Shown here: piece after piece, positions 6,814-24,321 of the stretch
How positions within the stretch are numbered: position 1 is the first letter of the stretch
Layout of the letters: each line of letters opens with the position of its first letter
DNA from: Sphingobacteriia bacterium
Lineage (GTDB): Bacteria; Bacteroidota; Bacteroidia; Chitinophagales; Chitinophagaceae
Reading direction: 5' to 3'
Length of the DNA: 42,936 nt
Assembly (NCBI GenBank): GCA_947460365.1
Contig: CANHJH010000002.1
Span: 1-42,936 of the forward strand
The notes under the pieces: generated by a model
What the model was told of the DNA's origin: nothing
The model's input: the letters and a program-made list of their open reading frames with translations, nothing else
Databases searched by the model: none
Made by a program: the position numbers and the translations under genes

Positions 6814-6959
6814 TTTCAGCCTAAAAAAACCCTTTTACACACTGTAAAATCGAATCAATTTTAATTCATATTCGAGATACAAAATACTATATTCGAATTT
6901 AACAGGCTGTAAAGTTGCTAATTCGGGCATACAATTGCAACAATAATAGCCTGTTTTTT
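6814..6959 (+). promoter_or_regulatory. leuA leader with terminator-like hairpin and alternative pairing
   Basis: AACAGGCT (6901-6908) pairs with AGCCTGTT (6948-6955), enclosing an inner stem (GTTGC, AATT with AATT, GCAAC). A T-run at 6954-6959 follows, ending 27 bases before the leuA ATG. The same left arm can instead pair upstream: TTTCAGCCT at 6814-6822 matches AGGCTGTAAA at 6904-6913 with one bulge. The two pairings exclude each other, as in an attenuator. No ATG-initiated leader peptide exists in the 211-base gap. A weak promoter-like TATATTCG at 6888-6895 would start transcription too late to include the upstream arm, so the switch model depends on an unseen upstream start site. ACTGTAAA also recurs at 6803 and 6841. 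Confidence 0.4.
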
Positions 6960-6986
6960 CATCTAAAGACCATAAAAAAAAGATTG

Positions 6987-10257: not shown

Positions 10258-11370
10258 ATGGATAAGAAAATTGCAGTGATAAATGGTGATGGTATTGGAC
10301 CGGAAGTAACCGCTCAATCAATAAAAGTATTGAATGCAGTTGCACAAGAGTTTAACCATAGTTTTAGTTATACCAATGTATTAATGGGAGCCGATGCGAT
10401 CGATAAAACAGGCAATCCCTTACCGGATGAAACATTAGATATTTGTAAACAAAGTGATGCGATTTTATTTGGCGCAATTGGTCACCCGAAGTATGACAAT
10501 GACCCAACGGCTAAAGTAAGGCCTGAACAAGGTTTGTTGAAATTGCGCAAAGAACTACAATTGTTTGCCAATATCCGACCTATTAATACCTATCCTTCTT
10601 TACAACATTTGTCTCCTTTAAAAAGCAAACAATTAGAAGGAGTAGACTTTATTATTTTCAGAGAGTTAACCGGAGGTATTTATTTTGGAAAGCGCACATT
10701 GAATGAAGAGCAAACATATGCAACTGATGAGTGTGCCTATAGTGCAGAAGAAATAGAAAGAGTAGCCAAGCAGGCATTTCAATATGCACAAACCAGAAGA
10801 AAAAAACTAACCTTAATAGATAAGGCGAATGTATTAGAAACTTCCCGCTTATGGCGTAAAGTAGTACAAACTTTATCGGCACAGTTTCCGGATGTAGCGG
10901 TAGATTATATGTTTGTAGATAATGCAGCGATGCAGATTATTATTAACCCGGCACAATTTGATGTAGTACTTACGGAGAACATGTTTGGTGATATCATTAG
11001 TGATGAAGCCAGTGTATTAAGTGGGTCATTAGGATTATTGCCTTCTGCATCTGTAGGAAATGGTGCGGCATTATTTGAGCCAATACATGGTTCTTATCCG
11101 CAAGCTGCCGGAAAAGATATAGCTAATCCATTGGGTTCTATTTTATCTTCTGCAATGATGTTGGATCATTTTGGCATGTATACTGAAGCAAAAATAGTTC
11201 GTGAAGCAGTTAATTGGACGCTGACACACAGTTTTGTTTCTAAGGACATTGATCCGATTAACAACTATGGTACCAATGCTATTGGTGACCTCATTGCAGA
11301 TTATGTAAAGAAGCATGCAAAAACAGGCGTACCCGAAAGTGGCGAATCGCATGCATCTACTATTATTTAA
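10258..11370 (+). CDS. leuB: 3-isopropylmalate dehydrogenase
   Basis: NAD-dependent oxidative decarboxylase that converts 3-isopropylmalate to 4-methyl-2-oxopentanoate. Signatures: GDGIGPEVT at the N-terminus, FRELTGGIYFG, DKANVLETSRLWR (the substrate lysine/asparagine region) and the metal-binding TENMFGDIISDEAS, followed by GSLGLLPSAS and the NAD loop EPIHGSYPQAAGKDIANP. The protein is 370 residues, slightly longer than usual because of a C-terminal tail (HAKTGVPESGESHASTII). It is the last leu gene; the 320 bases after it carry the ilv attenuator. Confidence 0.97.
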   Translation: MDKKIAVINGDGIGPEVTAQSIKVLNAVAQEFNHSFSYTNVLMGADAIDKTGNPLPDETLDICKQSDAILFGAIGHPKYDNDPTAKVRPEQGLLKLRKELQLFANIRPINTYPSLQHLSPLKSKQLEGVDFIIFRELTGGIYFGKRTLNEEQTYATDECAYSAEEIERVAKQAFQYAQTRRKKLTLIDKANVLETSRLWRKVVQTLSAQFPDVAVDYMFVDNAAMQIIINPAQFDVVLTENMFGDIISDEASVLSGSLGLLPSASVGNGAALFEPIHGSYPQAAGKDIANPLGSILSSAMMLDHFGMYTEAKIVREAVNWTLTHSFVSKDIDPINNYGTNAIGDLIADYVKKHAKTGVPESGESHASTII

Positions 11371-11407
11371 TACAAACAGTTGTAAGTATTAAATCGTAAA
11401 AAAGTTC

Positions 11408-11438
11408 TTTGTGAAATAAATAGACTGGCTTACCTTTA
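11408..11438 (+). promoter_or_regulatory. Candidate promoter of the ilv-thr operon
   Basis: TTTG at 11408-11411 and TACCTTTA at 11431-11438 match the Bacteroidota -33/-7 pattern (TTTG, about 19 bases, TAnnTTTG; last G replaced by A). The spacer is 19 bases. Transcription would begin around 11443-11446, about 10 bases before the leader-peptide ATG. This placement, right in front of a leader ORF and terminator, supports it. Confidence 0.5.
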
Positions 11439-11455
11439 TACAGAAGCAACATGCT

Positions 11456-11554
11456 ATGTATAAAAAAGGAAACAATATCATCACTACAATTATGGCAATA
11501 ATTATTGTCATGGTGATTATTATTATTCCGGTAATGCAAGGGGATGTACTTTAG
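11456..11554 (+). CDS. Ile/Val-rich leader peptide of the ilv operon
   Basis: A 32-codon frame (ATG 11456 to TAG 11552-11554), too short for most gene finders. Of its 32 codons 10 are Ile, 4 Val, 2 Thr and 1 Leu. They include an ATA-ATT-ATT run and four successive ATT codons before a Pro (residues 15-26 read IIIVMVIIIIPV with the intervening codons). E. coli IlvL is also 32 residues and likewise has a dense Val/Ile run ending in IIIP. The position (after a promoter, before a strong terminator, upstream of ilvE) and the RNA pairing described in the next entries indicate ribosome-mediated attenuation: stalling when Ile- or Val-tRNA is scarce. An alternative ATG at 11451 in another frame opens only a 16-codon peptide without this composition. 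A tiny single-pass membrane protein is the other possibility, since the same residues are hydrophobic. Confidence 0.8.
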   Translation: MYKKGNNIITTIMAIIIVMVIIIIPVMQGDVL

Positions 11555-11585
11555 TAAGTAAATAACAACTTAAAATACAAGCCCC
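11540..11585 (+). promoter_or_regulatory. Predicted antiterminator of the ilv attenuator
   Basis: GGGG at 11540-11543 can pair with CCCC at 11582-11585, TGTA (11545-11548) with TACA (11576-11579), and TTTA (11550-11553) with TAAA (11571-11574). This makes 12 base pairs interrupted by a 1x2 and a 1x1 internal loop. The 5' arm covers the last five codons of the leader ORF including its stop, and the 3' arm shares CCCC with the terminator. A ribosome stalled at the Ile run would leave 11540-11554 free, so the antiterminator forms; a ribosome at the stop codon would cover it, so the terminator forms. Predicted by hand pairing only. Confidence 0.65.
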
Positions 11586-11610
11586 GCCTAAATCGCGGGG
11601 CTTTTTGTTT
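11579..11610 (+). terminator. Attenuator terminator upstream of ilvE
   Basis: AAGCCCCGC (11579-11587) pairs with GCGGGGCTT (11595-11603): 9 base pairs, mostly G-C, with a 7-base loop and a TTTTTGTTTT tail. It lies 24 bases after the leader stop and 80 bases before ilvE, so it would terminate transcription before the operon unless prevented. Confidence 0.9.
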
Positions 11611-11690
11611 TACTGGTAATTTGCTTGTTTCAACAAAGGTTTACTGAAAAAACAGTAACCGCAACAAATAAAATCAATAAATAATAACAC

Positions 11691-12566
11691 ATGAACTATT
11701 ATAACAACGATACCATAATATATCATAATGGAAAATTGGTAAAAGCAGCAGAAGAAAAAATTGATTTGTACAGCCAATCTTTACATTATGGACTTTCTGT
11801 GTTCGAGGGTGTTCGTTCTTATAAAACAGCATCAGGTGAAACTAAAATCTTTAAACCTGTGGAGCATTATGAGCGGTTGAAGATTTCTGCTGAAACGGTG
11901 AACCTGCCATACAATTACAATACGCAAGCATTAATTGATGCGACTTATGAAGTGTTGAAGTTAAATAATTTGCAAGATGCATATATACGCCCTGTTGTAT
12001 ACGCCCCTGCAAACATGAGTTTTGCTCCAAATACCGAATCATACATATTTATACAAGCTTGGGAAATGGCGCCTTTTTTAGGAGAAAAGTTGTTGCGCAT
12101 CATGACTTCTTCCTTTCAAAGACCTAATCCTAAAGCCTTTAAAATGCATGCTAAAGTTGCGGGACACTATGTGAACTCTATTTTAGCCAGTCAGGAAGCC
12201 AAAGCAAAGGGATTTGATGAAGCCTTGTTATTAGACATTAATGACAACATTGCGGAAGGACCCGGTTCTAACATCTTCTTCGAAAAAGATGGTGTGCTGC
12301 ATACACCCAAACCCGGTTATATACTTTCAGGAATTACCAGAGCAACCGTTTTTGAAATTTGTACAAAATTAAATATTCCAATTGTTGAAGGTGCTTATAC
12401 CATTGAACAATTAAAACAAGCCGATTCGGTTTTCTTTTGTGGTACTGCCGCAGAAGTAATTGGTTGGGAATCGATAGATGATACGATTTTTCCTAAACCA
12501 TGGAAGGAATCATTAGGAGCTAAAATTCAGGAAGCCTATCAAAACCTGGTACACGAAAAAAATTAA
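11691..12566 (+). CDS. ilvE: Branched-chain amino-acid aminotransferase
   Basis: PLP enzyme of fold type IV that performs the last transamination to Ile, Val and Leu. The catalytic lysine is Lys155 (KMHAKVAGHYVN). Other signatures are LHYGLSVFEGVRSY near residues 31-44, IRPVVYAPANMSF, DEALLLD...IAEGPGSNIFFEK, and the phosphate-cup SGITRATVFEI. The 291-residue length is standard. It is the first structural gene after the attenuator, and ilvD starts 28 bases after its stop. Confidence 0.93.
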   Translation: MNYYNNDTIIYHNGKLVKAAEEKIDLYSQSLHYGLSVFEGVRSYKTASGETKIFKPVEHYERLKISAETVNLPYNYNTQALIDATYEVLKLNNLQDAYIRPVVYAPANMSFAPNTESYIFIQAWEMAPFLGEKLLRIMTSSFQRPNPKAFKMHAKVAGHYVNSILASQEAKAKGFDEALLLDINDNIAEGPGSNIFFEKDGVLHTPKPGYILSGITRATVFEICTKLNIPIVEGAYTIEQLKQADSVFFCGTAAEVIGWESIDDTIFPKPWKESLGAKIQEAYQNLVHEKN

Positions 12567-12594: not shown

Positions 12595-14274
12595 ATGGAA
12601 TTAAATAAATATAGCAAATCAATTACGCAAGATCCTACACAACCTGCAGCACAAGCTATGTTGTATGGCATTGGTTTAACGGAAGAAGATTTAAAAAAAG
12701 CACAAGTAGGTGTGGTGAGCATGGGTTACGATGGCAATACTTGTAATATGCATTTAAATGATTTAGCCAAAGTAGTGAAGCAAGGTGTTTGGAACAATGA
12801 CATGGTTGGTTTAATATTTAATACCATTGGTGTAAGTGATGGCATGAGCAACGGTTTGCCGGGTATGCGTTACTCATTGGTAAGCCGTGATGTTATTGCC
12901 GATTCTATTGAAGCAGTTTGCGGAGCACAGTGTTACGACTCGTTGATTGCTATTCCGGGTTGCGATAAAAACATGCCGGGTTCTATTATTGCCATGGGCA
13001 GATTAAATCGTCCATCTATTATGGTATATGGTGGAACCATTGCTCCCGGACATTATAAGGGTCAAGACTTAAATATCATTTCTGCATTTGAAGCATTGGG
13101 TCAAAAAATGGCCGGGCAATTGGACGAAGCTGATTTTAAGGGAATTATACAACATGCTTGTCCGGGTGCCGGAGCTTGCGGTGGCATGTACACTGCCAAT
13201 ACCATGGCATCTGCTATTGAAGCAATGGGTATGAGTTTGCCTTATTCTTCTTCTAATCCTGCATTAAGTGAAGAAAAGCAAAAAGAATGTATTGAAGCAG
13301 GAAAGGCTATTAAATTATTGATGGAGAAAAACATTCTTCCACGAGATATTATGACACGCAAAGCATTTGAAAATGCTATTACGTTAATTATGGTTTTGGG
13401 TGGAAGCACTAATGCTGTATTGCATTTGATAGCCATGGCCAGAAGCGTGGATATTCCTTTAACACAAGACGATTTTCAGGCAATCAGCGATAAGATTCCG
13501 GTATTAGCAGATTTTAAACCAAGCGGAAAATATTTAATGCAAGACGCACACCAATATGGTGGAGTACCTGCGGTGATGAAGTATTTGTTGAGTAAAGGTT
13601 TATTGCATGGCGATTGTATAACTGTAACAGGAAAAACGATTGCAGAAAATTTAGTGGATGTACCGGATCTAGATTTCGATCAACAAAAAATAATTTATCC
13701 TTTAGAAAATCCATTGAAAGCAACCGGACACTTGCAAATATTATATGGCAATTTAGCTTCGGGTGGAAGTGTTGCAAAAATTTCAGGAAAAGAAGGCGAA
13801 TTATTTGAAGGGCCAGCAAGAGTATTTGATGGTGAACAAGAATTGATAGCCGGAATAAATTCGGGAAGAATTAAAGCCGGTAATGTAATAGTGATAAGAA
13901 ATGTGGGACCTGTTGGCGCACCCGGAATGCCTGAAATGTTGAAACCTACTTCTGCCATTATTGGTGCGGGATTGGGTAAATCAGTTGCCTTAATTACCGA
14001 TGGAAGATTTAGTGGCGGCACACATGGTTTTGTGGTAGGACATATTACTCCTGAAGCAGTAAAGGGTGGATTAATTGGTTTAGTTGAAGATGATGACATC
14101 ATTGAATTAAATGTGGCTACTAAAAAAATGACGTTAAAAGTAAGTGAGGAGGTAATTGCAGAAAGAAGAGCTAAATGGGTAAAGCCGGCTCCAAAAGCAA
14201 CAAAAGGATTATTGTTTAAATATGCGCAGTGTGTAAAAGATGCATCTGAAGGATGTGTTACAGATGAAGCATAA
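12595..14274 (+). CDS. ilvD: Dihydroxy-acid dehydratase
   Basis: Iron-sulfur dehydratase that makes 2-oxoisovalerate and 2-oxo-3-methylvalerate, precursors of Val/Leu and Ile. The cluster ligands are visible: Cys50 in [10 protein letters not shown], Cys123 in [10 protein letters not shown] and Cys195 in [16 protein letters not shown]. The [14 protein letters not shown] motif near the C-terminus is intact. The 559-residue length is typical of the IlvD branch. It lies 28 bases after ilvE and 52 before ilvB, in the same operon. Confidence 0.96.
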
Positions 14275-14326
14275 AAGAAGTACGAACATAAAGATTACTA
14301 AATCATAAGATTATAAAATAAATTGT

Positions 14327-16096
14327 ATGAGTACAATTGAACAAAAAACATCAACAGCTGCTACCAATAACAACAGTGAAATTTTAAAAGATTCATTGGC
14401 AGGTACAGTAGAGCTAACCGGTTCACAGGCGGTGTTAGAAGCCTTTATTGCGGAAGGCGTTGATACCGTGTTTGGATATCCAGGCGGTGCAATTATGCCC
14501 ATATACGATGCATTGTATGATTACAATGATCGTTTAAAACACATATTGGTTCGTCATGAACAAGGCGGTATACATGCCGGTCAGGGTTATGCGCGCAGCA
14601 GCGGAAAGGTGGGTGTTGTATTTGCTACCAGTGGACCGGGCGCAACCAATTTGGTAACAGGTTTGGCTGATGCTATGATAGATAGTACTCCTTTAGTATG
14701 TGTAACGGGTCAGGTATTTGCACACTTGTTAGGTACCGATGCCTTTCAGGAGACGGATGTGATAAATATTACTACACCAGTTACTAAATGGAACTATCAG
14801 GTAACTGATGCCAATGAAATTCCACATGTATTAGCCAAAGCATTTTATATTGCAGGCACCGGTCGACCGGGCCCTGTGTTGATAGATATTACCAAGAATG
14901 CCCAGATTCAAAAAATAGATTACAAAGGCTATGAGAAGTGCACGCACATTAGAAGTTATAGACCTAAACCAATTGTAAGAAAGTCGTACGTTGAACAAGC
15001 AGCGCAATTAATTAATGCGGCTAAGAAACCATTTGTGTTATTTGGTCAGGGTATTATTTTAGGAAAAGCAGAAAAAGAATTCAAGGCGTTTATTGAGAAA
15101 GGCGGATTGCCATCGGCCTGGACGCTTTTAGGATTAAGCGCTTTACCTACCGATCATCCATTAAATGTAGGCATGTTGGGCATGCATGGAAACTATGGCC
15201 CCAACGTACTTACTAATGAGTGTGATGTTTTAATTGCAGTAGGTATGCGATTTGATGATAGGGTTACCGGCAGATTAGATAAATATGCAAAGCAGGCTAA
15301 AGTAGTACACTTAGATATTGATCCGGCAGAGATCGATAAAAATGTAAAAGCCGAAGTGCCTGTTTGGGGAGATTGTAAAGAAACTTTACCCCTGCTTACC
15401 AAACTCATAGAAGAGAAAAAACACACTGAATGGTTGGCTAAGTTTAATGAATATACCCGTGAAGAAAATGAAGTGGTTATTCAACACGAACTTCATCCTA
15501 CCACAGCGGTATTAACCATGGGTGAAGTAATCGATAGCTTAAATGAGTTAACCAATGGCAATGCAATTATAGTAACCGATGTAGGTCAACATCAAATGGT
15601 AGCTTGTCGTTACGCAAAGTTTAATCAATCTAAAAGTAATGTAACATCGGGCGGATTGGGTACAATGGGTTTTGGACTACCCGCTGCAATTGGTGCAAAA
15701 TTTGGAGCTCCGGAAAGAACAGTAGTTGCTGTAATTGGTGATGGAGGTTTTCAAATGACCTTGCAAGAGTTGGGCACGATCATGCAAACCGGTTTAGATG
15801 TTAAGATATTAATTCTGAATAATCAATTCTTAGGAATGGTTCGTCAGTGGCAGCAACTGTTTAATGATAAACGATATTCGTTTGTAGACATACAAAGTCC
15901 TGATTATGTTCAGTTAGTAAAAGCATATGGCATCGAAGGAAATAGAATCGATGAAAGATCAGCCATTAAATCTGCTTTAGCAACCATGTTAAATCATAAA
16001 GGTTCTTACTTGTTGGAAGTAATGGTAGGCAAAGAAAACAATGTATTCCCAATGGTACCGCAAGGTTGCAGTGTATCAGAAATCAGATTAAAATAG
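14327..16096 (+). CDS. ilvB: Acetolactate synthase, large (catalytic) subunit
   Basis: TPP-dependent enzyme making acetolactate or acetohydroxybutyrate from pyruvate. The catalytic Glu is Glu78 in RHEQGGIHAGQGYARSSG; the TPP/Mg motif GDGGFQMTLQELGT...LNN spans about residues 471-500. The FAD-linked middle domain (MLGMHGNYGPNV...GMRFDDRVTGR) is also present, as expected for the anabolic AHAS. The first 30 residues before TGSQAVLEAF are a low-conservation extension rich in Thr/Asn. The length is 589 residues. The stop is followed after 7 bases by ilvN. Confidence 0.96.
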   Translation: MSTIEQKTSTAATNNNSEILKDSLAGTVELTGSQAVLEAFIAEGVDTVFGYPGGAIMPIYDALYDYNDRLKHILVRHEQGGIHAGQGYARSSGKVGVVFATSGPGATNLVTGLADAMIDSTPLVCVTGQVFAHLLGTDAFQETDVINITTPVTKWNYQVTDANEIPHVLAKAFYIAGTGRPGPVLIDITKNAQIQKIDYKGYEKCTHIRSYRPKPIVRKSYVEQAAQLINAAKKPFVLFGQGIILGKAEKEFKAFIEKGGLPSAWTLLGLSALPTDHPLNVGMLGMHGNYGPNVLTNECDVLIAVGMRFDDRVTGRLDKYAKQAKVVHLDIDPAEIDKNVKAEVPVWGDCKETLPLLTKLIEEKKHTEWLAKFNEYTREENEVVIQHELHPTTAVLTMGEVIDSLNELTNGNAIIVTDVGQHQMVACRYAKFNQSKSNVTSGGLGTMGFGLPAAIGAKFGAPERTVVAVIGDGGFQMTLQELGTIMQTGLDVKILILNNQFLGMVRQWQQLFNDKRYSFVDIQSPDYVQLVKAYGIEGNRIDERSAIKSALATMLNHKGSYLLEVMVGKENNVFPMVPQGCSVSEIRLK

Positions 16097-16103
16097 CCAA
16101 AAA

Positions 16104-16691
16104 ATGAAATCAGAATATACCATCACCGTTTATACCGAAAATCAGGTAGGTCTGTTAAACCGAATTGCCATTATTTTCTCTCGCAGAAAAATAAATGTAG
16201 AAAGCCTTAATGTATCACCATCAGAAGTAGAAGGCATTCATCGATTTACCATTGTAATTAATGAAACAGAAGAAGTGGTAAGAAAACTTTGTCGTCAGAT
16301 TGAACGACAGGTAGAAGTATTGAAAGCTTATTACAATACCAATGAAGAAATTATTTGGCAGGAAATGGCATTGTATAAAGTGCCTACGGATGAAGTAGCG
16401 GAAAAAATGAAAGTAGAAAGATTGTTGCGTGAGCATGGTGCAAGAGCGGTAGTGATCAGAAAAGATTATACCATTTTTGAAACTACGGGACAAAGAGAAG
16501 AAACAGATAAGTTGGTAAAAGTATTAGAACCTTTTGGTTTGATAGAATTTGTTAGAAGTGCAAGAGTAGCAATTATTAAGGCAAGTAAAGGGTTTCACGA
16601 GAAGTTGAAAGAGTTTGAAGAGGGTGAGCCTTCAGAGGAATTGGCAGAAAACGAATTCTTAGATAAAGGACAAAGTGTATTTACCATGTAG
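16104..16691 (+). CDS. ilvN: Acetolactate synthase, small (regulatory) subunit
   Basis: ACT-domain subunit that activates IlvB and confers valine feedback inhibition. The N-terminal ACT domain is plain: YTITVYTENQVGLLNRIAI, then INVESLNVSPSE around residues 4-40. The central ALYKVPT and the downstream ACT-like part (LLREHGARAVVIRKDYTIFE, TGQREETDKLVKVLEPFGLIEFVRSARVAI) follow. At 195 residues it is longer than the usual 160-170, owing to an acidic tail rich in Glu (about residues 170-195). The TAG stop lies inside a GTAGAGACG-type palindrome, suggesting the repeat inserted at or overlaps the gene's end. Confidence 0.95.
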   Translation: MKSEYTITVYTENQVGLLNRIAIIFSRRKINVESLNVSPSEVEGIHRFTIVINETEEVVRKLCRQIERQVEVLKAYYNTNEEIIWQEMALYKVPTDEVAEKMKVERLLREHGARAVVIRKDYTIFETTGQREETDKLVKVLEPFGLIEFVRSARVAIIKASKGFHEKLKEFEEGEPSEELAENEFLDKGQSVFTM

Positions 16692-16713
16692 AGACGACAT
16701 GCTGTCGTCTTTT
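16688..16713 (+). repeat. GTAGAGACG-type palindromic repeat overlapping the ilvN stop
   Basis: GTAGAGACGAC, a 5-base loop and GTCGTCTTTT: 7 base pairs (AGACGAC 16692-16698 with GTCGTCT 16704-16710) and a short T tail. The TAG stop of ilvN is the TAG within GTAGAGACG. Sister of the copy at 8157-8183. Confidence 0.55.
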
Positions 16714-16781
16714 AAATTCAACATTCAACAAAGACCCTAACACGGTTAAATATTTATAACAAAACAAACAATCAATAAACA

Positions 16782-18266
16782 ATGGCAAATTATTTCAACT
16801 CATTACCGCTGCGTGAACAATTGAATCAATTGGGAGTATGTGAATTTATGGATAAGTCGGCATTTGCTGATGGTGTTACTGCATTAAAAGGTAAAAAATT
16901 AGTGATAGTAGGTTGTGGAGCGCAAGGTTTAAACCAAGGCTTAAACTTACGTGATTCAGGCTTAGATGTTACTTATGCGCTTCGTCAAGAAGCCATCGAT
17001 CAAAAAAGAGCTTCGTGGAAAAACGCTACCGACAACAATTTTACTGTTGGTACTTATGAAGCTTTAATTCCAACAGCTGATGTAGTAATTAACCTTACAC
17101 CCGATAAGCAACACACATCGGTAGTTACAGCCATTATGCCATTGATGAAAAAAGGCGCAACATTGTCTTATTCTCATGGTTTTAATATTGTGGAAGAAGG
17201 CATGCAAATTAGAAAAGACATTACGGTGATCATGGTAGCGCCAAAATGTCCGGGTACAGAAGTACGGGAAGAATATAAAAGAGGATTTGGCGTACCTACT
17301 TTAATTGCGGTACATCCGGAGAATGATCCTGAAGGAAAAGGATGGGATTACGCTAAAGCATATTGTGTTGGAACAGGTGGACATAGAGCGGGTGTTTTAA
17401 AGTCTTCTTTTGTTGCGGAAGTAAAATCAGACTTAATGGGTGAGCAAACTATTTTATGTGGTTTGTTGCAAACTGGTTCTATTCTTTCATTCGATAAAAT
17501 GGTGGAGAAAGCCATTGCGCCTGAATATGCAGCAAAATTAATTCAATATGGTTGGGAAGTCATTACCGAAGCCCTTAAACAAGGTGGAATTACTGCCATG
17601 ATGGATCGTTTATCTAATCCTGCAAAAATCAAAGCTTTTGAATTATCAGAAGAGTTGAAAGACATTATGCGTCCGTTGTTTCAAAAACACCAGGATGATA
17701 TTATGAGTGGTGTATTTTCTTCTACCATGATGCAAGACTGGGCTAATGACGATAAAAATTTATTAACCTGGAGAGAAGCAACAGGTCAAACTGCGTTTGA
17801 AAAAACAGCGCCGGGTTCAATGAAAATTACTGAGCAAGAATTTTTCGACAATGGATTGTTAATGGTTGCGTTTGTTAGAGCCGGTGTTGAATTAGCTTTT
17901 GAAACAATGGTAGAAGCGGGTATTAAAGAAGAGTCTGCATACTATGAGTCATTGCATGAAACTCCATTAATTGCCAACACTATTGCACGTAAGAAGTTAT
18001 ATGAAATGAATCGAGTAATTTCTGATACAGCAGAATATGGTTGTTATTTATTTGATCATGCATGTAAGCCATTGTTGACTGATTTTATGAAAAAAATAGA
18101 TACGGATGTTATCGGTAAAAATTTTAATACGGGTAAAGATGGTGGTGTTGATAATAAAACCTTAATAGCAATTAATGCGGTTATTCGCTATCATCCGGTA
18201 GAACTAATTGGGGAAGAATTAAGACAGGCAATGACAGACATGAAAACAATCAGTACTAACGCTTGA
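16782..18266 (+). CDS. ilvC: Ketol-acid reductoisomerase (class II)
   Basis: NADPH- and Mg-dependent enzyme that isomerises and reduces acetolactate and acetohydroxybutyrate. The N-terminal Rossmann motif [15 protein letters not shown] spans about residues 41-55, and the knotted C-terminal domain is duplicated. The 494-residue length marks the long class II form (as in E. coli, about 490) rather than the 330-residue class [18 protein letters not shown], with the metal-binding Asp and Glu, is present. It begins 90 bases after ilvN and ends 10 bases before ilvA. Confidence 0.96.
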
Positions 18267-18276
18267 TATTGAACTA

Positions 18277-19542
18277 ATGGATAATGTGCAAATAAAAGAG
18301 TCTGAACTGTATGGTCTTGATGTGAAAGGAGCAGCAGAAAGACTTCGACATATTGTTACACATACACCACTAACGTATAATACCAATCTCTCTAAAAAAT
18401 ATAATTGTAAAGTATATTTAAAGCGAGAGGATTTGCAGATAGTGCGTTCTTATAAATTACGTGGCGCGTATAATATGATCAGCAGTTTAACTGCTGATCA
18501 ATTAGCGCGTGGTGTAGTGTGTGCAAGTGCAGGAAATCATGCGCAAGGTTTTGCTTATAGTTGTAAGAAGCTAAACATTAAAGGCGTGGTTTTTATGCCC
18601 ATTATCACCCCCAATCAAAAAGTTAGTCAAACTAAAATGTTTGGTGATGGCAATATTGAAATAAAATTGATAGGAGATACATTTGATGATTGTGCAGCAG
18701 CAGCAAAGGAATATACAGCAGCCAATGGAATGACTTTTATTCCTCCGTTTGATCATCTGAAAATTATAGAAGGACAAGCAACAGTTGCGCTGGAAATTTT
18801 AGCAGATTTACCACAAGTTGATTATGTATTTTCACCTTTTGGTGGCGGCGGACTAACAGCGGGAATGGGTGCTTATTTTAAAAAGCATTCAAAGCATACT
18901 AAAATAATTGGATTAGAGCCGGAAGGTGCCCCATCTATGACAGAAGCTTTGAAAGCAGGCCATCCGGTAACAGTTGAAAATATTGAACGATTTGTAGATG
19001 GTGCGGCGGTGAAGCGTGTAGGAGATCTTACTTTTAATATTTGTAAAGAAGTGATGGATAAAATGTGTTTGGTGAATGAAGGTAAAGTTTGCACCACCAT
19101 TTTAAAATTATACAATGAAGATGCAATTGTAGTTGAACCAGCCGGAGCTTTGTCAATTGCTGCGTTAGATGACTTTGCGGAGGAAATACAAGGCAAAACT
19201 ATTGTATGTATCATTAGTGGCAGCAACAACGACATAGATCGGATGCAGGAGATAAAAGAAAGATCTTTGCAATACGAGGGCTTAAAGCATTACTTCCTGA
19301 TTCGTTTTGCACAGCGTCCTGGCGCATTAAAGGAATTTGTAAGTCATGTATTAGGCCCAACAGATGACATTACCCGATTTGAATACATACAAAAAAACAA
19401 TAAAGAAACAGGTCCGGCATTAGTAGGAATAGAATTACAGTCGAGTAAAGATTACACCGTTTTGATTGAAAATATGAAAAGGTATAATATAAACTATACT
19501 GCACTGAATCAAAATGATAATGTGTTTGGTTATTTGGTTTAA
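18277..19542 (+). CDS. ilvA: Threonine deaminase (biosynthetic)
   Basis: PLP enzyme that deaminates threonine to 2-oxobutanoate, committing it to isoleucine. The PLP lysine is Lys60 in RSYKLRGAYNMI, the substrate loop is CASAGNHAQGFAY, and the phosphate-binding glycine loop is FGGGGLTAG (residues 188-196). The C-terminal part (from about residue 330; HYFLIRFAQRPGALKEF) is a single ACT-like regulatory domain. At 421 residues this is the shorter, one-regulatory-domain form of IlvA, compared with 514 in E. coli. Placement directly before thrA links threonine supply to its main sink. Confidence 0.94.
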   Translation: MDNVQIKESELYGLDVKGAAERLRHIVTHTPLTYNTNLSKKYNCKVYLKREDLQIVRSYKLRGAYNMISSLTADQLARGVVCASAGNHAQGFAYSCKKLNIKGVVFMPIITPNQKVSQTKMFGDGNIEIKLIGDTFDDCAAAAKEYTAANGMTFIPPFDHLKIIEGQATVALEILADLPQVDYVFSPFGGGGLTAGMGAYFKKHSKHTKIIGLEPEGAPSMTEALKAGHPVTVENIERFVDGAAVKRVGDLTFNICKEVMDKMCLVNEGKVCTTILKLYNEDAIVVEPAGALSIAALDDFAEEIQGKTIVCIISGSNNDIDRMQEIKERSLQYEGLKHYFLIRFAQRPGALKEFVSHVLGPTDDITRFEYIQKNNKETGPALVGIELQSSKDYTVLIENMKRYNINYTALNQNDNVFGYLV

Positions 19543-19581
19543 TAAATTAATTTGTATTTAAGATTTTAAGAAAGAGAAGTT

Positions 19582-22023
19582 ATGCAGGTTTTAAAATTCG
19601 GAGGAAGTTCGGTTGCCAATGCAACTAACATCAACAAAGTTGTATCAATAGTAGTGAAAGCAAAGGAGAAAGAACCGGTTGTATTGGTTGTTTCTGCATT
19701 GGGAGGTGTAACGGATCAATTGATACTTACGGGTACTTTAGCTGCAAATGGTAATGAAGAATATAAGCTACAAATGAAAGCATTGGAAGCTAAGCATTTA
19801 GATGCGGTTAGAGAACTGTTACCTATACAAGAACAAAGCGCAACATTAAGTTGGGTTAAACAGCAATTAAATGAATTAGAGGGCTTATGTGATGGTATAT
19901 TTTTATTGGGCGAATTATCTCCTCGAATTAAAGATCGGTTGGTTAGCTTCGGAGAGTTAATGTCTTCTTATATTATTTCAGCTAAACTCCAATCAATATC
20001 AGTTAATCAACAATGGGTAGATTCTAGAAAGCTAATTATTACCGATGATCAATATAGCAATGCAGCGGTTAATTTTGAAAAAACCAATGCAAATATTCAA
20101 CAATATTTTTCTGAAAATAAATTTGACATATACGTTGCACCCGGATTTATTTCTTCTAATGAAGAAGGGTTCACTACAACCTTAGGCAGAGGGGGTTCTG
20201 ATTATACCGGCGCTATTTATGCAGCTGCATTAAATTCTGCAACTTTAGAAATTTGGACAGATGTGAGTGGTATGAAAACAGCTGATCCAAGGTTGGTGCA
20301 GCATGTAAAGCACATCGAAAGAATTTCTTACCAGGAGGCCATGGAGTTATCGCATTTTGGGGCAAAGATTATTTATCCGCCTACGATACAGCCGGTAATG
20401 AAAAAAAACATACCGGTTTGGGTGAAGAATACATTTGAACCATTAGCCGAAGGAACCATCATAGAGAAAGAAGTAACGCACGACAATCAAATTATCAGAG
20501 GAATATCCAGTATAAACTCTATCAGCTTATTGAGTTTAGAAGGGAGTGGTATGGTAGGGATACCTGGATTTTCAAAACGATTATTTGAAACCTTAGCCAT
20601 AAAAAATATCAATGTAATATTAATTACACAAAGTTCTTCAGAACATTCTATTTGCGTAGGTATTAGTGAAGCAGATGCAGTGGTGGCACAAGCAGCAATT
20701 GATCATGCGTTTTCATATGAAATCCAAACCAGTAAAGTGGAGCCGGTAAAAGTTGAAAACGGATTAAGTATTGTTGCTGTAGTAGGAGAACAAATGAAAA
20801 GTCACCCGGGTATCAGCGGTAAAATGTTTGGTGCTTTAGGTAGAAACGGAATTAATGTAAGAGCCATCGCACAAGGTTCTTCAGAAAAAAACATATCATC
20901 CGTATTGTCGGCAGTGGATGTAAAGAAAGCCATCAATGTATTGCATGAAGAATTTTTTGAAACCAGCTACAAGCAGCTCAATCTATTTATTGCAGGTACA
21001 GGAAATGTGGGAGGAAAACTAGTTGGACAAATTGCCAAGCAAGTAAATTATTTAAAAGAACATCTTCGTTTGCAAATACAAGTGGCAGGTATAGCCAACA
21101 GTAAAAAAATGTTGATGAATGATGGTGGTATTGATTTAAACAACTGGAAAGAAGAACTTGCATCCGGTGAAGACGCAACCATAGATAAGTTTGTAGAATC
21201 CATCATCCATAAAAACTTAAGAAATAGTGTTTTTGTAGATGTAACTGCTAATGCAGCCGTTGCCGCAGTTTATGGAACATTGTTAGAAAAAAGTGTGTCG
21301 GTAGTAGCATGTAATAAAATTGCTTGTTCTTCTGCTTACAACAATTATCTACATCTTAAAACATTGGCGCGTGCGTATAATACCCGCTTCTTATTTGAAA
21401 CAAATGTTGGAGCAAGTTTGCCCATTATAGGAACATTGAATGATTTAATACGCAGTGGAGATAAGATAAATAAAATTCAAGCAGTACTATCCGGCACTTT
21501 AAATTACGTATTCAATAATTACGATGCAACTGTGCCATTTTCACAAATTGTAAAACGAGCACAAGATGAGGGCTATACAGAGCCTGATCCACGTTTAGAT
21601 TTAGGGGGTACTGATGTGATGAGAAAAATAATGATTCTTGCTAGGGAAGCCGGTGAGAAAATGGAAATGGCAGACATCGAGAATGAAGCATTTTTGCCGG
21701 CATCTTGTTTTGAAGGCACCGTACAGGATTTTTATAATGAAATGGAAAAGCAAGAACCACATTTCAAGAAATTATATGAATCTGCAAAAGCAGAAAATTG
21801 TAAATTAAAATTTGTTGCTTCTTTTGATAATGGAAAGGCCAAAGTAGGATTGCAGCATATCCCTTCTGGTTCTGATTTTTATCATTTATATGGCAAAGAT
21901 AATTTAGTATTATTTTATACAGAAAGATATCCGGAGCAACCGTTGGTAATAAAAGGTGCCGGTGCAGGAGCAGATGTAACAGCATCGGGTGTATTTGCAG
22001 ATATAATTAGGGTAGCAGGCTAA
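19582..22023 (+). CDS. thrA: Bifunctional aspartate kinase / homoserine dehydrogenase
   Basis: 813-residue fusion catalysing the first and third steps from aspartate toward threonine. Aspartate kinase occupies about residues 1-300, with LKFGGSSVANA at the start and TLGRGGSDYTGAIYAAAL plus EIWTDVSGMKTADPR downstream. Two ACT regulatory segments follow (roughly 310-460, including SSEHSICVGI and GSSEKNISSVL). Homoserine dehydrogenase starts near residue 467 with the NAD motif FIAGTGNVGG, and its catalytic region reads LSGTLNYVFNN...AQDEGYTEPDPRLDLGGTDVMRK. The length matches E. coli ThrA (820). Aspartate-semialdehyde dehydrogenase, needed between the two activities, is not in the window. ACT domains imply feedback control by threonine. 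Confidence 0.95.
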   Translation: MQVLKFGGSSVANATNINKVVSIVVKAKEKEPVVLVVSALGGVTDQLILTGTLAANGNEEYKLQMKALEAKHLDAVRELLPIQEQSATLSWVKQQLNELEGLCDGIFLLGELSPRIKDRLVSFGELMSSYIISAKLQSISVNQQWVDSRKLIITDDQYSNAAVNFEKTNANIQQYFSENKFDIYVAPGFISSNEEGFTTTLGRGGSDYTGAIYAAALNSATLEIWTDVSGMKTADPRLVQHVKHIERISYQEAMELSHFGAKIIYPPTIQPVMKKNIPVWVKNTFEPLAEGTIIEKEVTHDNQIIRGISSINSISLLSLEGSGMVGIPGFSKRLFETLAIKNINVILITQSSSEHSICVGISEADAVVAQAAIDHAFSYEIQTSKVEPVKVENGLSIVAVVGEQMKSHPGISGKMFGALGRNGINVRAIAQGSSEKNISSVLSAVDVKKAINVLHEEFFETSYKQLNLFIAGTGNVGGKLVGQIAKQVNYLKEHLRLQIQVAGIANSKKMLMNDGGIDLNNWKEELASGEDATIDKFVESIIHKNLRNSVFVDVTANAAVAAVYGTLLEKSVSVVACNKIACSSAYNNYLHLKTLARAYNTRFLFETNVGASLPIIGTLNDLIRSGDKINKIQAVLSGTLNYVFNNYDATVPFSQIVKRAQDEGYTEPDPRLDLGGTDVMRKIMILAREAGEKMEMADIENEAFLPASCFEGTVQDFYNEMEKQEPHFKKLYESAKAENCKLKFVASFDNGKAKVGLQHIPSGSDFYHLYGKDNLVLFYTERYPEQPLVIKGAGAGADVTASGVFADIIRVAG

Positions 22024-22067
22024 TAATTTCATTAATCAATTCTGAGAATCAGTATAGATAAAAAAAT

Positions 22068-22994
22068 ATGAACAATAAAAAAATAGTAGTTCATGCTCCT
22101 GCAACAGTAGCCAATATGGTTTGCGGGTTCGATATTTTGGGTTTTGCAGTAAATGACCCTTATGATATTATGTCTATTTCATTTTCAGATCATGCAGGTA
22201 TTACCATAATAAATGAGGACGAATACAATCTACCAACGAATCCGGAAAAAAATGTAGCTGGTGCTGCATTGTTGGCATTAATGGAAGAGGCACCGGAGGT
22301 TAAAGGATTTGAATTACGTATCAAAAAACAAATAAAACCCGGCAGTGGAGTGGGTTCCAGTGCTGCAAGTTCTGCCGGCGCAGTAGTTGCGGCCAATGCA
22401 TTGTTGAATAATAAATTTAGTAAAGAAGATCTGGTTCGCTTTGCAATGAATGGAGAGAAATTGGCATCGGGTGTAAAACATGCAGACAATATTGCTCCTT
22501 GTATTTATGGTGGTGTAACGCTCATTCGTTCAATTTTCCCATTAGATATTGTTCAATTAAATGCACCTACATTATATGTTACTATTGTGCATCCTCAAAT
22601 AGAAGTGAGAACAGCAGATGCAAGAAGTATATTGAAACAGCAAATTCAATTAAAAGATGCGATAAAACAATGGGGTAATATTGCAGGTTTAGTTGCAGGC
22701 TTACAGAAAGAGGATTATGATTTAATAGGACGCTCTTTAGAAGATGTTTTGATTGAACCAATTAGAAGTATCTTGATTCCAGGATTTGATTTAGTAAAAC
22801 AAAAAAGTAAAGAAGCCGCTGCTTTAGGAGGTGGAATTTCAGGATCTGGCCCATCCATTTTTATGTTGAGTAAAAGTGAATCAACCGCAAAAGAAGTAGA
22901 GCAAGTTATGCACGAAGTATTCGAAAATATTGGCTTAGCCCATCATACTTATGTTACCACCATTAATCAGCATGGTGTAAAAATTATATCATAA
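22068..22994 (+). CDS. thrB: Homoserine kinase
   Basis: GHMP-family kinase phosphorylating homoserine with ATP. The phosphate-binding GHMP motif IKPGSGVGSSAASSAG lies near residues 89-104, and the C-terminal LGGGISGSGPSIFML motif is intact. The 308-residue length is standard. It follows thrA by 44 bases and precedes thrC by 31, in the canonical thrABC order. Confidence 0.95.
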   Translation: MNNKKIVVHAPATVANMVCGFDILGFAVNDPYDIMSISFSDHAGITIINEDEYNLPTNPEKNVAGAALLALMEEAPEVKGFELRIKKQIKPGSGVGSSAASSAGAVVAANALLNNKFSKEDLVRFAMNGEKLASGVKHADNIAPCIYGGVTLIRSIFPLDIVQLNAPTLYVTIVHPQIEVRTADARSILKQQIQLKDAIKQWGNIAGLVAGLQKEDYDLIGRSLEDVLIEPIRSILIPGFDLVKQKSKEAAALGGGISGSGPSIFMLSKSESTAKEVEQVMHEVFENIGLAHHTYVTTINQHGVKIIS

Positions 22995-23025
22995 TAATTT
23001 ATCTCCTTCAATTGTTTTATAGTAT

Positions 23026-24321
23026 ATGCAATATTATAGTTTAAATAAACAAGCACCGAATGTTAGTTTTAGAGAAGCGACCGTATTAGGTCAGGCGCCA
23101 GATAAGGGCTTGTATTTTCCGGAAAGAATACCTACGCTAGATAAATCATTGATTAGAGATATTAAATCCTATAAAAAAGAAGAATTAGCATTTAAAGTAA
23201 TGTTGCCTTATGTGGGTGGAACTATTGCTGATGAGGTATTGTATAAGATTGTATCGGAAACCATTGACTTTGATTTTCCGCTAGTAAAAATAAACGATCA
23301 AATTGCATCACTTGAATTATTTCATGGACCAACACTGGCATTTAAGGATGTAGGTGCAAGATTCATGAGTAGGTGTTTGGGCTATTTTTCTCAAAATCAA
23401 TCCAATAAAGTAACGGTACTGGTAGCCACTTCGGGCGATACCGGAGGTGCAGTGGCCAACGGTTTTTTAGGAGTAGAAGGGGTAGAGGTAGTAATATTAT
23501 ATCCTTCAGGCAAAGTGAGTCCGGTTCAAGAATTGCAGTTAACTACATGCGGCCAAAACATAACTGCATTAGAAGTTGCAGGAACGTTTGATGATTGCCA
23601 GGCGATGGTGAAGTCGGCCTTTATGGATGCAGACTTATTAGCGAAGATGCAGTTAACATCGGCCAATTCCATTAATGTAGCCAGATGGTTGCCTCAGCAG
23701 CTGTATTATTTTTTTGCCTATCAGCAATGGGATGAAGAGGCGCCTCCGGTGATAGCAGTGCCGAGTGGCAACTTTGGAAATATTTGTTCAGGGTTATTGG
23801 CATATGTAAGTGGATTACCTGTACAACATTTTATTGCAGCCTGTAATGAAAATGATGCAGTACCTGAATATTTGAGAACAGGAAAATATGCCGCGAAGCA
23901 GGCAGTAGCTACCATTTCTAACGCAATGGATGTGGGGAGTCCGAGTAATTTTGTACGTATATTAGAATTGTTTGAAAACCAATACGAAACCATTAAAGCA
24001 TTGGTTAGCGGTTATACGGTAAGCGATGCAATTACCAGGCAAGTAATGGCAGAGGTATTTAAGAAGGATAACTATATATTAGATCCACATGGTGCAGTGG
24101 CGTATTATGCGTTGAACGATTATCTGCATCAGCATAGTGATCAAAAAGGATTTATTTTAGAAACGGCACATCCGGTTAAATTTCCTGATACGGTTGAAGA
24201 AATGATTGAACAAAAACTACCCGTACCTGCATCTGCGCAAGCATTGTTTGGCAAAGAAAAGCACAGTATTTTATTAAATGCCGGTTTTGATGCGTTGAAA
24301 GAATATTTGATGAGCAGATAG
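23026..24321 (+). CDS. thrC: Threonine synthase
   Basis: PLP fold-II enzyme converting phosphohomoserine to threonine. The PLP lysine is Lys107 in HGPTLAFKDVGARFM, and the phosphate-binding loop is VATSGDTGGAVANG. The conserved N-terminal Y.S......SF.EA...G....GL..P pattern starts the protein. At 431 residues it is the mid-length bacterial form. It is the last gene of the ilvE-thrC operon; its stop is 2 bases from the stop of the convergent trpF-like gene, so the terminator must lie within coding sequence or transcription reads through. Confidence 0.95.
   Translation: MQYYSLNKQAPNVSFREATVLGQAPDKGLYFPERIPTLDKSLIRDIKSYKKEELAFKVMLPYVGGTIADEVLYKIVSETIDFDFPLVKINDQIASLELFHGPTLAFKDVGARFMSRCLGYFSQNQSNKVTVLVATSGDTGGAVANGFLGVEGVEVVILYPSGKVSPVQELQLTTCGQNITALEVAGTFDDCQAMVKSAFMDADLLAKMQLTSANSINVARWLPQQLYYFFAYQQWDEEAPPVIAVPSGNFGNICSGLLAYVSGLPVQHFIAACNENDAVPEYLRTGKYAAKQAVATISNAMDVGSPSNFVRILELFENQYETIKALVSGYTVSDAITRQVMAEVFKKDNYILDPHGAVAYYALNDYLHQHSDQKGFILETAHPVKFPDTVEEMIEQKLPVPASAQALFGKEKHSILLNAGFDALKEYLMSR

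Follow-up and report, generated by a model that had tools for sequence, protein, structure and literature searches.

The window, i.e., the whole 42,936-nt stretch of DNA that was analysed, carries two neighboring sets of amino acid biosynthesis genes recognized with NCBIfam models. Upstream are leuA, leuC, leuD, and leuB, the last ending at 11370, and downstream on the same strand as leuB is a cluster in the order ilvE-ilvD-ilvB-ilvH-ilvC-ilvA-thrA-thrB-thrC, which makes the earlier label "ilv-thr operon" right. The gap between leuB and the ATG of ilvE (11370 to 11691) contains a short ORF, referred to here as the leader, and an intrinsic terminator (Table 1).

The leader ORF runs on the plus strand from an ATG at 11456 to a TAG stop codon (11552–11554). 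An Ile/Val leader peptide ahead of an ilv operon had been predicted from this DNA, and the sequence bears out its length, its content of 10 Ile, 4 Val, 2 Thr, and 1 Leu codons, its ATA-ATT-ATT run and its four consecutive ATT codons, as well as the order ORF, terminator, ilvE. The peptide has basic residues near its N-terminus plus a hydrophobic stretch. The ORF is beyond chance expectation: when the 320-nt gap was dinucleotide-shuffled 5000 times, no ATG ORF had at least 8 Ile/Val per 10 residues (0/5000; 9 were observed), and at least 7 per 10 residues was reached in 6/5000. The specificity of the sensor is for Ile/Val, no weight being given to the two Thr codons.

The terminator, likewise anticipated between the leader and ilvE, is a hairpin of nine pairs (seven of them G-C) followed by a T tract. 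Two hallmarks of attenuation are therefore found in the gap: upstream of the first structural gene, ilvE, stands a short ORF whose codons for the operon's product form a run, and an intrinsic terminator separates the leader stop from that gene. As for the promoter candidate placed before the ORF, a TTTG-N19-TACCTTTA pattern can be read by eye and its TTTG is presumably the -33 element of a Bacteroidota-type promoter, whereas a sigma-70 scan of 11000–12200 gave no promoter-like site within 11371–11456. The pattern precedes 10 of the 55 non-redundant leaders described below (1.2 expected) and ends 15–20 nt before the ATG in eight of the ten. A TAnnTTTG -7 box is named in the accessible text of a study on Flavobacterium psychrophilum (PMC9723704).

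Among the closest known systems is the ilvL attenuator of Escherichia coli K-12 (ilvXGMEDA), and the likeness originally noted holds: both leaders have 32 residues and a dense Val/Ile run closing with Pro, and a terminator 20 nt past the stop is a further common feature. The two differ in that IlvL has four Leu (one in the window leader), and that the window element has a promoter of the Bacteroidota type and reaches the gathering score of no Rfam leader family. The VVVIIIP string of IlvL was found by inspection in 7/55 leaders, a string too short to separate descent from convergence.

Table 1. Coordinates of the features of the leader region in the window, and related leaders in other genomes.
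Feature	Position	Strand	Basis or location
Candidate promoter: TTTG (11408–11411), 19 nt, TACCTTTA (11431–11438)	11408–11438	+	read by eye
Leader ORF, 32 codons, MYKKGNNIITTIMAIIIVMVIIIIPVMQGDVL	11456–11554	+	sequence, shuffle test, relatives
Putative sensor codons ATA ATT ATT GTC ATG GTG ATT ATT ATT ATT	11498–11527	+	sequence; Ile/Val columns in relatives
Segment 2, GGGGATGTACTTT, core of predicted pairing with segment 3	11540–11552	+	fold; begins 12 nt beyond the run's final codon (11528 to 11540)
Segment 3, AAAATACAAGCCCC, putative antiterminator 3' half, overlapping terminator 5' arm	11572–11585	+	fold, duplex energy
Intrinsic terminator hairpin (11579–11603) and T-rich tail	11579–11609	+	terminator scan, fold
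ilvE, at the head of the operon presumed to be controlled	11691–12566	+	ORF list, NCBIfam
ilvD, ilvB, ilvH, ilvC, ilvA, thrA, thrB, thrC	12595–24321	+	ORF list, NCBIfam; gaps of at most 90 nt
Example of tandem leader peptides: first MNFTNQKNIIVISIIAVVINNSKETAF, second MYQLLSVIIIVIIIPLRL			genus g39 of family f23
His-run leaders (L192, L196, L198, L200, L202, L204–L206, L210–L214, L217)			before hisG

A second hairpin with a T tract, stable (z -4.2), occupies positions 6900–6962 of the window directly before leuA; a leader ORF was not seen with this hairpin, which is perhaps a separate leu control element. In L119 a similar hairpin with changed bases was noted by eye before leuA. Leucine leaders before leuA were found in none of the 12 regions with gene matches (of 13 scanned) and, by eye, not in the window. 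A different contig of the window's own assembly (G000:C274, L002) carries a further ilvE (53%) and ilvD (64%), either paralogues or contamination.

Occurrence before ilvE and across the phylum

An IlvE search of genome contigs yielded 55 relatives, 53 of which have upstream DNA (L021 and L040, without it, were left out). An ORF with an Ile/Val run and a terminator precede ilvE in 46/53 (45 by scan and L010 by reading), including records of Sediminibacterium, Terrimonas, Flavihumibacter, Chitinophaga, Chryseobacterium, and Epilithonimonas. The comparison of relatives' gaps proposed with the original prediction thus came out in its favor, the ORF being retained together with the terminator and the Ile/Val run being kept. 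The seven relatives in which the pair was not found before ilvE are L009, L017, L019, L045, L046, L058, and L059.

Among 50 loci with leuB just upstream of the ilv genes (window included), the two elements come and go together with the length of the gap between leuB and the next ilv gene. Neither is present in the 19 loci with a gap of 144 nt or less (19/19), and both were detected by scan in 28/30 loci with a gap of at least 227 nt; the remaining two, L066 and L010, showed both elements on separate inspection (30/30). In L045, with a gap of 213 nt, the terminator is present and the leader absent. Some rows are not independent. L069/L121 stand for a single locus, and in three further pairs a genome recurs, unchanged or nearly so, in a second collection: L006/L067 and L018/L068 (with identical leaders) as well as L009/L061 (identical across the compared stretch).

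The survey was extended to DNA upstream of ilvD, taken both from relatives and from genomes sampled across the phylum. A leader with a terminator occurred in 24 of 66 regions in the sense orientation vs. 1 in the reverse complement, and, with a looser threshold, in 26 vs. 2 of 60 regions phylum-wide; the scan found no leader in 42/66 and 34/60 of these regions, i.e., about half or more. Scanning 179 regions altogether (53 + 66 + 60) produced 100 candidates, located in 95 of them; 58 remained when near-copies were taken out, and 55 once three that resembled parts of long genes (L103, L110, L185) had been dropped before the pairing test. Two of the 55 (L153, L163) start with TTG. The family f36 loci with divergent ilvD (28/30) gave no credible leader, the single match, L233, being doubtful. 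Five loci (L104, ALLLPVIILNLLLLILG; L105; L106; L112; L114) have ORFs before ilv genes that are Leu-rich as well as Ile/Val-rich, as if their lineages sensed all three branched-chain amino acids.

Predicted pairing of the leader with the terminator arm

The putative antiterminator was examined in 55 non-redundant pairs by calculating the energy of the duplex that the terminator 5' arm would form with the RNA reaching from the end of the run to 12 nt past the stop codon. The mean was -16.3 kcal/mol for own pairs vs. -10.6 kcal/mol with arms swapped in from dissimilar loci, none of 5000 partner permutations was equally good (z -13), and 46/55 pairs reached p ≤ 0.05 against shuffles, where 2.8 were expected. 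For the family, this points to an antiterminator that shares the terminator 5' arm and could lie under a ribosome positioned on the leader stop codon. In the window alone the evidence is marginal (-12.8 kcal/mol, p 0.05 by shuffling), so that the antiterminator of the window rests mainly on the family. In 43/55 leaders, pairing begins 8–14 nt past the final Ile/Val codon of the run, and in the window the core of segment 2 begins 12 nt past it, a spacing that would leave segment 2 free while a ribosome stands on the sensor codons. Applied to E. coli, the same test was passed by thrL (p 0.003), ilvL (p 0.03), and ivbL (0/300 shuffles), and failed by the known attenuators hisL (p 0.23) and leuL (p 0.84).

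A switch operating at equilibrium was considered and rejected: the stalled and released states could not be told apart by equilibrium folding, the terminator being favored in most loci in both (mean probability 0.84 stalled, 0.95 released). Because equilibrium favors the terminator whatever the ribosome does, the switch would have to be kinetic, and kinetic folding is assumed here. Folding predicts that at least half of the terminator 5' arm is sequestered before the 3' arm exists in 53/55 leaders.

A GGAGG motif, often as GGAGGTGG, lies within segment 2 in 19/55 leaders, where it is a Shine-Dalgarno look-alike inside the coding region. Bacteroidota ribosomes are reported to work without Shine-Dalgarno-led initiation; in our interpretation they could ignore the motif in the antiterminator strand.

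Tandem leaders and histidine leaders

In a genus of family f23 (g39), a single ilv operon is preceded by two Ile/Val leaders in series in 20 of 28 loci (L253–L280), each leader having a terminator of its own. Five further loci (L108, L109, L148, L168, L184) were picked because they are tandem. The distance from the first terminator to the second ATG is 7 to 32 nt in these 25 loci, a distance that seems too short to hold a separate promoter, and the second leader should therefore be reached by readthrough of the first terminator. Both antiterminators reach p ≤ 0.05 in 12/25 tandem loci and at least one fails in the other 13. Within the material accessible to our literature search, the tandem attenuators of Salmonella mgtCBR (PMC3641672) came up and nothing on amino acid leaders in series was evident; the tandem form may be undescribed so far. 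As far as the accessible text goes, mgtCBR resembles the Bacteroidota pairs in that a single operon leader contains two short ORFs, but does not concern amino acid biosynthesis, whereas the Bacteroidota pairs repeat the Ile/Val run, each with its own terminator.

Leaders of a second specificity were found before hisG: ORFs with a His run and a terminator occur in 14 of the 30 best-scoring loci of the phylum (1/30 on the reverse strand). The pairing test was passed by 12/14, and two near-duplicate pairs are included in the 14.

Probable attenuation and alternative explanations

The best reading of the element is leader-peptide attenuation, as originally proposed, because ORF and terminator co-occur according to the gap, the Ile/Val run is kept and the antiterminator is supported across 55 pairs. 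Judged from sequence data, it is very probably a ribosome-mediated transcription attenuator that senses charged tRNA-Ile and tRNA-Val. The ORF, its codons, the terminator, their joint presence or absence in relatives, the complementarity and the spacing can be read in the DNA itself. In the scheme we infer, which involves translation of the leader, ribosome stalling, co-transcriptional folding and a response to starvation, RNA polymerase would start just 5' of the leader ORF with a ribosome following. When Ile and Val are ample, the ribosome would reach the stop codon at 11554 and cover segment 2, leaving segment 3 free, so that the terminator forms and transcription ends without reaching ilvE. 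Under a shortage of Ile-tRNA or Val-tRNA, the ribosome would stall in 11498–11527 with segment 2 uncovered; segment 2 would then pair with nascent segment 3, pre-empting the terminator and allowing ilvEDBHCA-thrABC to be transcribed.

The ORF might instead encode a small membrane protein with one hydrophobic helix, its position next to a terminator being incidental; the basic residues close to its N-terminus, together with its hydrophobic stretch, would fit such a protein. Core composition was compared using 51 non-redundant hydrophobic ORFs with terminators, picked without favoring Ile/Val over other hydrophobic residues (the same scan of the reverse complement gave five). Their cores contain 44% Ile, 24% Val, 14% Leu, 4.5% Ala, and 1.2% Phe (Ile/Val/Leu 81%), vs. 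12% Ile, 12% Val, 16% Leu, 18% Ala, and 7.8% Phe in 41 hydrophobic stretches of the window's long ORFs. Cores made of Ile/Val/Leu and poor in Ala and Phe fit sensor codons better than a membrane helix.

The pN/pS ratios of the leader bear on the same question and differ between groups: 0.22 in 20 Chitinophaga, 0.73 in nine Sediminibacterium-like, and 1.20 in four Terrimonas-like loci (the Chryseobacterium-type value, 0.71, was set aside owing to the mis-trimmed row L056). The higher two values suggest little purifying selection on the peptide outside Chitinophaga. In Chitinophaga, the low ratio and peptides kept over most of their length would suit a membrane protein. The Chitinophaga leaders (L023, L026–L039, L041–L044, L057) conserve Trp, Gln, and Asn outside the run as well. 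Against a membrane protein also speak the range of peptide lengths (17 to 50 residues as called), the complementarity of the ORF end to the terminator and the His-run ORFs that occupy the same position before hisG in 14/30 loci, and we regard this explanation as very unlikely.

Even less probable is that the hairpin only terminates the leu operon, the ilvE promoter lying downstream of it and the ORF having arisen by chance. Although the end of leuB is found upstream on the same strand and both Ile codons and the gap are AT-rich, the shuffles never produced such an ORF and a promoter-like site precedes it. Moreover, leader and terminator are kept before ilvE in 20/20 Chitinophaga and 10/10 Chryseobacterium/Epilithonimonas-type loci that have no leuB within 2.5 kb upstream.

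At gathering scores, Rfam reported no family in the window, in 18 relatives or in 14 further loci, and the leader families (Thr, Leu, His, Trp, and Phe leaders) did not reach theirs in the window, the best leader-type match on the ORF strand being Phe_leader (25.4 bits, cut-off 55). A low-threshold scan of 11380–11700 (E up to 10) picked up 38 matches across the two strands, none of which reached its own cut-off. The match with the lowest E-value, GcvB (9.5e-5; 28.9 bits, cut-off 42), an enterobacterial sRNA, was taken as a terminator-like match and not as a relative. Use of the terminator by a T-box, a riboswitch or a binding protein is equally improbable, for although the same hairpin would serve any antiterminator, no T-box or riboswitch model is among those 38 weak matches, the window lacks Rfam matches at gathering scores, and the sensor codons correspond to the operon's product.

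The attenuator had been considered possibly new for this lineage. The accessible text of PMC9723704 asserts putative leader-peptide attenuators upstream of amino acid operons in F. psychrophilum, a member of the same phylum, and names structured 5' elements before pheA and hisG, so that the suggestion of novelty has to be qualified; that text contains no sequences, does not name an ilv leader and, unlike the present analysis, reports no antiterminator test. The available portion of PMC7366714 describes sORFs of Bacteroides thetaiotaomicron reminiscent of leader peptides. As stated in the accessible part of a 2010 paper presenting a case from Firmicutes (PMC2965389), leader-peptide systems had, to its authors' knowledge, earlier been shown only in Proteobacteria and Actinobacteria, and leader genes and reinitiation are the topic of PMC4833913, as far as its accessible text indicates. 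Our search, with most subscription journals outside its scope, found no paper recognizable as describing this ilv leader, and cases in this phylum may already be included in a 2010 comparative survey (doi 10.1134/S0026893310010164).

We consider it rather likely that leader-peptide attenuation is widespread in the control of amino acid biosynthesis in Bacteroidota (ilv and his at least) and that several lineages have two complete Ile/Val attenuators in series. Specialists may be most interested in the ilv leader family, which goes unreported by any Rfam model, and in the leaders arranged in tandem. The leaders described here would provide a regulatory logic for branched-chain amino acid synthesis in a large phylum with sparsely described RNA regulation, and supply a set of candidate natural attenuators that could be annotated and used to build an Rfam family. 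If the tandem attenuators are real, the level of readthrough would reflect two ribosome decisions multiplied together and the response would be steeper. The pairs offer a test of whether repetition of an attenuator sharpens the response.
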